NCBI RefSeq assembly: GCF_022809715.1 | Contig: NZ_CP094459.1 | Coordinates: 62,001 to 126,000 of the forward strand | Reading direction: 5' to 3' | DNA from: Burkholderia pyrrocinia | Lineage (GTDB): Bacteria > Pseudomonadota > Gammaproteobacteria > Burkholderiales > Burkholderiaceae | Length of the DNA: 64,000 nt | Shown here: positions 30,425 through 31,103 of the stretch, one piece after another | Numbering within the stretch: position 1 is the stretch's first letter | How the letters are laid out: each line of letters opens with the position of its first letter | Notes under the pieces: model-generated | Databases searched by the model: none | What the model was told of the DNA's origin: nothing | The model's input: the letters and a program-made list of their open reading frames with translations, nothing else | Program-made: the position numbers and the translations under genes

Positions 30425-31103
30425 CCGGCTTCCTGTCGCACGAATCGCTCACAGTTTTCCGGCTTCCCCGTGCAAGGTTATCCACCCGGCGCTGTGGATA
30501 ACCTTGCGAAATCCACACGCACTTCATGTGTAATCACAGTGGACGTAAACTGGGCAACTCGGCACAGCTGTGAAACGGCCCCAAAGTTGCTCATCTCAAA
30601 CTTCTGTGCACGAACAGCCTGTGCAACGGGTTATGGTTTCGCCAACGCATTGATCCGTCAGCGTAAACCGAAGTTATCCACAGAACTGTGCGTCCTTTGT
30701 TAACTTCTACTACGTATATATACAGGTAAACCTTTGAAACCAAAGACCTGTGGTGCCGCACAGCGCCGCGAGTCGATTCAATGGGTTCCAGACCGAAAAA
30801 GCTGTGGCACAATCGGTTTCCTTCGCGTTCGTCCGGCCAGGCGCCGGACAAGCTTCAATGGAACGGTCGGCACGGTTTCGAATCTGAATCTTCGAGACTG
30901 CGCAGTCCGTTCACACACCAGGCCGACAATCCAGATCGGCAACCTGTGCGACTTTCCGCCGGATGGCGGAACAGGCGGACCCCATGTCCCGCCGTCGTCG
31001 ACCACAACAATCACATTCGGGGCGATACCCAGCCGGCGCGCATCCATTTCTGACGCTTGACCCCGCGTCGCTGGCGGTTGCTTCCAAAGGAGAAGTCACC
31101 ACG
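30425..31103. other. Candidate chromosomal replication origin (oriC)
   Basis: 679 non-coding bases. They contain two exact 9-bp DnaA boxes, on the minus strand at 30493-30501 and the plus strand at 30674-30682. An 8/9 box at 30478-30486 and a 7/9 box at 30509-30517 are also present. The first pair forms 14-bp inverted arms (30472-30485 and 30494-30507). Just right of the last box is an AT-rich tract (about 30697-30760, including ACGTATATATACAGG) suitable for unwinding. The right half (30780-31080) is ordinary non-coding DNA leading to the antiporter gene. Boxes plus AT-rich tract, HU nearby, parS/parAB 27 kb away and the switch of gene direction all fit an origin. dnaA itself is not in the window. 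Confidence 0.65.

Follow-up and report, generated by a model that had tools for sequence, protein, structure and literature searches.

A probable core of the chromosome 1 replication origin of Burkholderia pyrrocinia and its repeated homologous modules

Background

Where does replication of chromosome 1 of Burkholderia pyrrocinia begin, and does it begin at one place only? Bacterial chromosomes usually have one start site for replication; an origin beside dnaA is common in bacteria, and the oriC of the E. coli type adjoins mnmG (gidA). The window analysed here, a stretch of 64,000 nucleotides, covers bases 62,001-126,000 of a contig of 3,636,047 bp, in a genome of 7,693,326 bp in three contigs. 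An earlier note, made from this sequence alone, had placed a likely oriC of chromosome 1 between mnmC and a gene for a Kef-type antiporter.

In B. cenocepacia J2315 bidirectional replication of chromosome 1 was measured, in 10-kb bins, from a predicted origin region; the exact origin was left open in the account cited, and a second box cluster was described near the skew minimum (Du et al. 2016, PMC4948915). For relatives the origin region has been predicted before, its exact point being left open, and the present locus is not new in kind; what looks new is the occurrence of separate paralogous oriC modules. A search of titles and abstracts gave no description of repeated oriC modules in this family. 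We report a likely core for an origin whose exact point stayed open in a published Burkholderia study, a portable signature that locates the origin core across many genera (two span classes separated by about one helical turn, a spacer of 21 bp, and trios), and the finding that this core is repeated.

Results and discussion

Elements of the putative origin core

The segment 30472-30738, here called module A, consists of an inverted pair of DnaA boxes, a long spacer, a third box and an AT-rich trio element (Table 1). Both neighbours, mnmC and the antiporter gene (kef), are supported by domain or equivalog matches, and the protein encoded by the latter shares 98-99% identity with its counterparts in B. 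arboris, B. cenocepacia, B. cepacia and B. seminalis, which marks the contig as a Burkholderia chromosome 1. Genes for HU, MnmG and ParA- and ParB-like proteins and two parS-like sites, called against the parS consensus, were likewise found near the locus, as had been claimed. The E. coli type of arrangement was not found, given the distance to mnmG (Table 1).

Table 1. Positions of the features discussed, in window coordinates.
Feature	Position	Strand	Setting or state	Support
HU gene (hupB)	27811-28089	-		
mnmC	28475..30424	+	adjoins module A on its left; start codon provisional	NCBIfam MnmC equivalog, 751 bits vs cut-off 540
A1, DnaA box, 1 mismatch (TTATCCACC)	30478..30486	+	left arm of inverted pair	
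A2, exact DnaA box	30493..30501	-	distal box of 190-bp pair	
Spacer, 172 bp	30502..30673	.	contains shared motifs; loop predicted	
A3, exact proximal DnaA box	30674..30682	+	adjoins predicted unwinding element	
AT-rich predicted unwinding element (TTTGTTAACTTCTACTACGTATATATACAGGTAAACC region)	30695..30731	+	near-invariant in 80 relatives	
Three predicted DnaA-trios, 3'-GAA GAT GAT-5' on lower strand	30704..30712	-	begin 21 bp past A3	
CPA2/Kef-like sodium/hydrogen exchanger gene (kef)	31104..32318	+	between modules A and B	Pfam PF00999, 98 bits; NCBIfam CPA2 match under cut-off
ybdK, carboxylate-amine ligase gene	32333..33448	+	between modules A and B	NCBIfam equivalog, 633 bits vs cut-off 425
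Site of B's unwinding element in sister genera	33518..33535	-	decayed in window	
Module B left box, exact	33549..33557	-	within 1 mismatch in 78/80 relatives (best pair in each)	
Module B right box, 1 mismatch (TTTTCCACA)	33718..33726	+	within 1 mismatch in 78/80 relatives (best pair in each)	
SET-domain protein	36839-37369			PF00856, 82.8 bits; sole NCBIfam match far under cut-off
parS-like 16-mers	57540-57555 (exact), 59493-59508 (1 mismatch)		flank mnmG start, precede parAB-like genes	
MnmG gene	58075-60045		starts 27 kb right of module A	
ParA- and ParB-like genes	60584-62483			

The earlier note had described two exact boxes and one 8/9 box within 205 bp, 14-bp inverted arms and an AT-rich tract beside the last box, and all of these were recovered. 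The arms lie at 30472-30485 and 30494-30507 with a loop of 8 nt, and the best 40-mer of the tract, at 30700, is 72.5% A+T, a level reached by 0.04% of the 40-mers in the window. Boxes with at most one mismatch number 10 in the window against 1.93 expected (maximum of 6 in 100 shuffles); exact boxes number 18 genome-wide, 7 of which fall in the first 140 kb of the contig, and the reversed control pattern gives 4. Module A thereby combines a cluster of boxes above chance with an AT-rich element adjoining a box, as a DnaA-dependent oriC does, the unwinding capacity of this element being read at the sequence level.

DnaA-trios are single-strand DnaA sites (PMC6669920, PMC8287927). For B. subtilis incC, basal unwinding is described with a DnaA box and, behind it, three or more trios, and module A shares this order (PMC6669920, PMC8287927): at least three trios are aligned after the box in the window (GAA GAT GAT) and in 80 of 80 relatives. 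The distance from box to trios is another matter, since it is 21 bp in all 80 relatives, longer than the 16 bp at most allowed in the published BUS search, and this argues against A as the main-origin core; module A also differs from incC, as described, in that dnaA does not adjoin it.

Based on these elements, a course of initiation can be proposed. DnaA, encoded 92 kb away, would bind the inverted distal pair A1/A2 plus the proximal box A3, and the spacer would loop and thus bring distal DnaA to A3. From A3 a DnaA filament might extend onto the trios and open the TATA-rich tract, whereupon two DnaB helicases would load and depart in both directions. We infer binding, looping, unwinding and firing at A from sequence. 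The loop is proposed because the spans of the box pair fall into classes about one helical turn apart (see below) and because the distal box of incC in B. subtilis is helically phased and acts via a loop, according to the passages cited (PMC6669920).

Two methylation motifs reported for origins of B. cenocepacia, GTWWAC and CACAG (PMC7364216), reach their highest density among the 336-bp stretches of the window at module A (4 against 0.07 expected and 10 against 0.4 expected, respectively), and control by methylation at the GTWWAC sites is possible. These sites lie at 30545, 30663, 30699 and 30726, represent 4 of the 14 in the window, and include one within the unwinding element. In the first 160 kb of the contig, the 2-kb bin of module A also ranks first for the 7-mer described in PMC4948915 (16 occurrences with at most one mismatch; the runner-up has 11), and the 9- and 10-mers from the same source showed no clustering at module A or C over these 160 kb. 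DnaA boxes, an AT-rich block, CTGTGCA 7-mers and the skew minimum mark the region in B. cenocepacia J2315 chromosome 1 as they do here, whereas homologous repeated modules or trios do not figure in the part of that description drawn on (PMC4948915).

Conservation of module A

We compared the loci of 80 named relatives from Burkholderia, Paraburkholderia and Trinickia, which were retained from 162 confirmed loci. Box A3 is exact in 79 and A2 in 76 of them (one mismatch in the other 4); A1 carries one mismatch in 73, none in 1, two in 5 and three in 1. The span of the pair is 189-190 bp in 78 loci (188 and 202 bp in one each), and hardly any change is seen in the element at TTGTTAACT..TACTACGTATATATA throughout. 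At the level of the family, a search for the pair geometry allowing spans of 178-204 bp was positive in 177 of 299 genomes and 13 of 25 genera, with 0 for the reversed control in every row. Among 26 of these 177 genomes, chosen from 12 genera, the spans form two classes that differ by about one turn of the helix: 189-191 bp (n=16) and 178-180 bp (n=9, one of them a B module), with a single span of 186 bp.

The module also occurs beside other genes. In 4 of 20 larger loci (L231, L232, L233 and L241, from genera g3, g5 and g24) it is located between a SET-domain gene and hupB, and the 20 kb of each of these four loci gave no mnmC or kef match. As a separate observation, a homolog of the SET-domain protein of the window directly adjoins the origin module in the g3, g5 and g24 loci. 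In genome G276, whose contig we take to be C. metallidurans CH34 chromosome 1, the module is found at 3,835,732-3,835,922. At the skew transition of CH34 chromosome 1, which lies about 90 kb from dnaA, 213 nt were reported to hold three perfect boxes (PMC2864759), and this description fits the module, although its neighbours (SET gene, hupB) differ from those in the window. A second, weaker copy lies 153 kb from this one in G276 and does not appear in the passages of the CH34 account used here (PMC2864759).

It might be argued that the boxes of A are no origin at all but control the expression of mnmC or of the antiporter gene, given that the site is intergenic and that DnaA can serve as a transcription factor. 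Yet the module recurs away from mnmC and kef, the antiporter gene starts about 370 bp past the conserved part, and GC skew switches at the site, which together render a purely regulatory role highly improbable.

GC skew, gene direction and dnaA

The check by cumulative GC skew that the earlier note had called for places the minimum near 85-95 kb and the maximum near 1,905 kb, which is the antipode, and not beside dnaA (77 sampled blocks, 1,536,047 of the 3,636,047 bases of the contig, interpolated). Over a contiguous 336 kb around the origin the local minimum falls at window position 33,931, adjoining module B. The expectation of a minimum at the origin and a maximum opposite therefore holds to within 3.2 kb, the minimum being that far to the right of the A boxes. 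This offset, together with the negative skew between A and B, counts against A as the core: mean GC skew is -0.031 left of module C (see below), -0.010 from C to A, -0.029 from A to B and +0.034 right of B.

The predicted switch in gene direction was found as well, with 6 genes on the plus and 16 on the minus strand left of the site against 17 and 7 right of it (Fisher p 0.007); the gene caller used for these counts relies on third-position G+C, misses mnmC, ybdK and hupB, and may produce false frames. Strand bias at 4-fold sites was also considered as an arbiter between A and B and rejected, the difference between leading genes (0.124, sd 0.125) and lagging genes (0.047, sd 0.136) being too small for one gene. 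The frame 30963-32318, which contains the antiporter gene, has a 4-fold-site skew of 0.239 and weakly favours A, while the whole-sequence skew from A to B weakly favours B.

As for dnaA, the statement that it is absent from the window and a poor marker of the origin proved right. The DnaA domain match starts at contig base 19, which implies that the contig begins within dnaA or close to it, and lies 92 kb left of the boxes. An origin adjoining dnaA would be the common bacterial arrangement, and one exact box indeed lies upstream of the gene. Nonetheless, this is the single exact box there, 900 inspected bases near dnaA gave no trio element, core models gave no match at dnaA at E<=10, and the skew goes on dropping from dnaA toward A and B, so an origin at dnaA is hardly credible.

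The strongest candidate for a main origin is module A: it is present in 80 of 80 relatives, adjoins the skew switch, and has gene direction changing around it. With the skew minimum and maximum, this conservation and its recurrence beside other neighbours in its favour, the segment is very probably the core of the main oriC of this chromosome 1, as judged from sequence.

A mirror-image module to the right

Module B (33549-33726) is a mirror image of A and lies 3 kb to its right, between ybdK and marR. Its unwinding element has decayed in the window, where a core model built from 12 A modules only (R2) matches just a box plus flank, at 8.2 bits. In sister genera the element is largely kept. Among 50 loci (L117-L166), which come from Paraburkholderia, Trinickia and certain strains designated Burkholderia sp., the left box is accompanied by an oppositely pointing unwinding element in 42, according to a box, trio and A/T test that is lenient in counting L146 and L162, whose motif is partly decayed; the unwinding motif itself, with at most six mismatches, was found in 41 of the 50, plus B. 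singularis. That species is the one carrier of the element among the 30 loci L087-L116, the other 29 having boxes without it, and B. guangdongensis shows a halfway decay. Where the element is kept, A and B point toward one another with kef and ybdK between them, and a complete Trinickia B aligns with A at z 11. Two opposed copies of the motif, separated by about 2.9 kb, occur in 5 of 61 Burkholderia genomes (G083, G134, G187, G362 and G391); two g11 loci have a module at the B position only, and both g8 genomes searched gave weak mirror-image matches of 22 bits at 3.5-3.7 kb from A. To the right of B, the stretch 33730-33780 is strongly conserved, ends in TTAGAATGTC and, by eye, looks like a promoter for marR.

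To go by its boxes, module B has probably retained DnaA binding, in a helper or titration role, and could assist A or influence marR. A possible, though doubtful, extension is a bipartite origin, with the unwinding element in A, a further DnaA-binding subsite in B, and normal initiation dependent on both; this would be compatible with A as the core of the main origin. The pair of B boxes is kept (Table 1) even without the unwinding element, A and B are facing mirror images in sister genera, and the skew minimum adjoins B, all of which suits such a division of labour. On the other hand, the right half of B adjoins the promoter-like stretch ahead of marR, so its boxes may serve transcription instead, and only one module is seen in the 20-kb loci from genera g3, g5 and g24. 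In the bipartite origins of B. subtilis and H. pylori, as far as the sources describe them, two box clusters are also at most a few kilobases apart; here kef and ybdK intervene and not dnaA, which is 92 kb off, and in sister genera both halves are complete modules that mirror one another. An origin split by dnaA was accordingly not found.

Module C and copy number

A third module, C, is located outside the window at contig 30,640-30,905 (L011:10640-10905), 62 kb left of A, in the opposite direction and beside a tRNA-Val gene. It was discovered by a box-free search for the unwinding motif, by inspection of boxes in the own genome and then by the A-only model R2. Over the 7.69 Mb this model scores A at 68.5 bits and C at 32.8 bits (E 3.7e-7), with nothing further at E<=10. 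A strict box and trio scan of 1,536,047 bases of the own genome had returned A as the single match, and missed C because one of its trios is altered. The alignment of A with C covers about 270 bp and scores 211, against 98 +- 8 for mononucleotide shuffles (z 14), and the spacer alone aligns at z 6.7. In all 18 extra motif loci the motif is preceded, at a distance of 23 bp, by a DnaA box with 0-1 mismatch, and in 12 of the 18 also by an opposed box at 190-192 bp.

Of the picture of a single origin, then, the site itself holds, but A is one of several copies: since the skew minimum falls beside B and C lies leftward, 'the' origin becomes one of a family, and A may not be the only origin because C is nearly complete. 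The earlier note mentions neither B nor C. Module C is a paralog of A, and we predict that it is an accessory origin or a DnaA-control locus.

That C works as a second origin in some cells, with the 62 kb between C and A copied either way, we consider unlikely. It is a full-length paralog, at least two core matches occur in 65 of 65 Burkholderia genomes, and the intermediate skew from C to A, between the values left and right of the zone, fits occasional use of C. However, the middle trio is altered in 21 of 34 C modules (a non-random sample that includes our own), 20 of which also have a mismatch in the proximal box, and this makes a fully active C less credible. Gene direction between C and A (29% of the coding length on the plus strand) fits replication from A. 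The 4-fold difference in this interval, +0.009 +- 0.044, is intermediate between the left arm (-0.055 +- 0.013) and the right arm (+0.100 +- 0.014), yet only about 1.4 standard errors off the left arm. Published profiles of B. cenocepacia chromosome 1, in 10-kb bins, are moreover described with one origin region in the account cited (PMC4948915).

Alternatively, C might be a DnaA-binding control locus and not an origin, a serious if minority possibility. E. coli has such loci in datA and DARS, which act by titration or DnaA-ATP conversion. The boxes of C are kept while its unwinding element is weakened in many genomes, and it sits in the origin zone, where gene dosage shifts early; still, the element is largely retained, which pure control would not need.

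The repetition extends beyond our genome. Using a model built from 32 modules of all kinds, our own A and C included (R1), the 65 Burkholderia genomes gave two core matches in 57, three in 6 and four in 2. In 42 of the 57 the two lie on the same contig in opposite directions, in 3 in the same direction 32-35 kb apart, and in 12 on separate contigs. The 42 opposed pairs comprise one A/B pair at 2.9 kb and 41 pairs at 40-67 kb (median 48 kb). Among 28 chosen family genomes of 1-5 contigs, 26 have at least two matches, each genome's on one contig (two in each of five g3 genomes, three in each of four g24 genomes), and at least one match was found in 257 of the 299 genomes of the family sample. 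These copy counts are lower bounds, because the search scores only part of the candidates.

A far-reaching and rather improbable reading is that the main chromosomes of Burkholderia and its kin are naturally multi-origin, with 2-4 paralogous oriC modules in one zone of which at least two fire, the modules duplicating, inverting and dying while the zone stays. If a second module does fire, the one-origin rule gains a natural exception that arises from paralogs of one oriC and can be compared over many species; if it does not, a silent copy conserved throughout the genus needs explanation.

Comparison with other reports

Two origins on one betaproteobacterial main chromosome have been proposed before, for R. 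pickettii 12D, from box counts and Z-curves (Gao 2015, PMC4403523). The candidates in that proposal adjoin dnaA and hemE, whereas the copies here are homologous modules, and the passage cited states that there was then no evidence for two functional origins on one bacterial chromosome (PMC4403523). Strains of V. cholerae with two origins on one fused chromosome were described in 2018; the account cited names an oriC-type and a plasmid-type origin, in contrast to the present modules, which are all paralogs of one oriC (PMC6284228). In B. pseudomallei, a 2026 report describes amplicons near the skew switch that are bound by DnaA, most strongly where two boxes are opposed (PMC12914326), and we infer that its two bound amplicons correspond to A and to B or C. 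A marker-frequency study of the same year includes Burkholderia and Cupriavidus (PMC13342612).

Two further exact DnaA boxes lie outside the window at contig 138,863 and 139,597 (L016:18863, 19597), the former between hemE-like and priA-like frames and the latter inside the priA-like one (frame names assigned by eye); the core model gave no match at either. An order-level search matched 10 of 120 genomes at E<=0.001, including 7 outside the family, 6 of them weakly; one of the out-of-family genomes, G408, has two matches 391 bp apart. Within genus g15 two same-direction box-trio modules are spaced about 0.4-0.5 kb apart (L224:9706/10198; L225:9219/9654).
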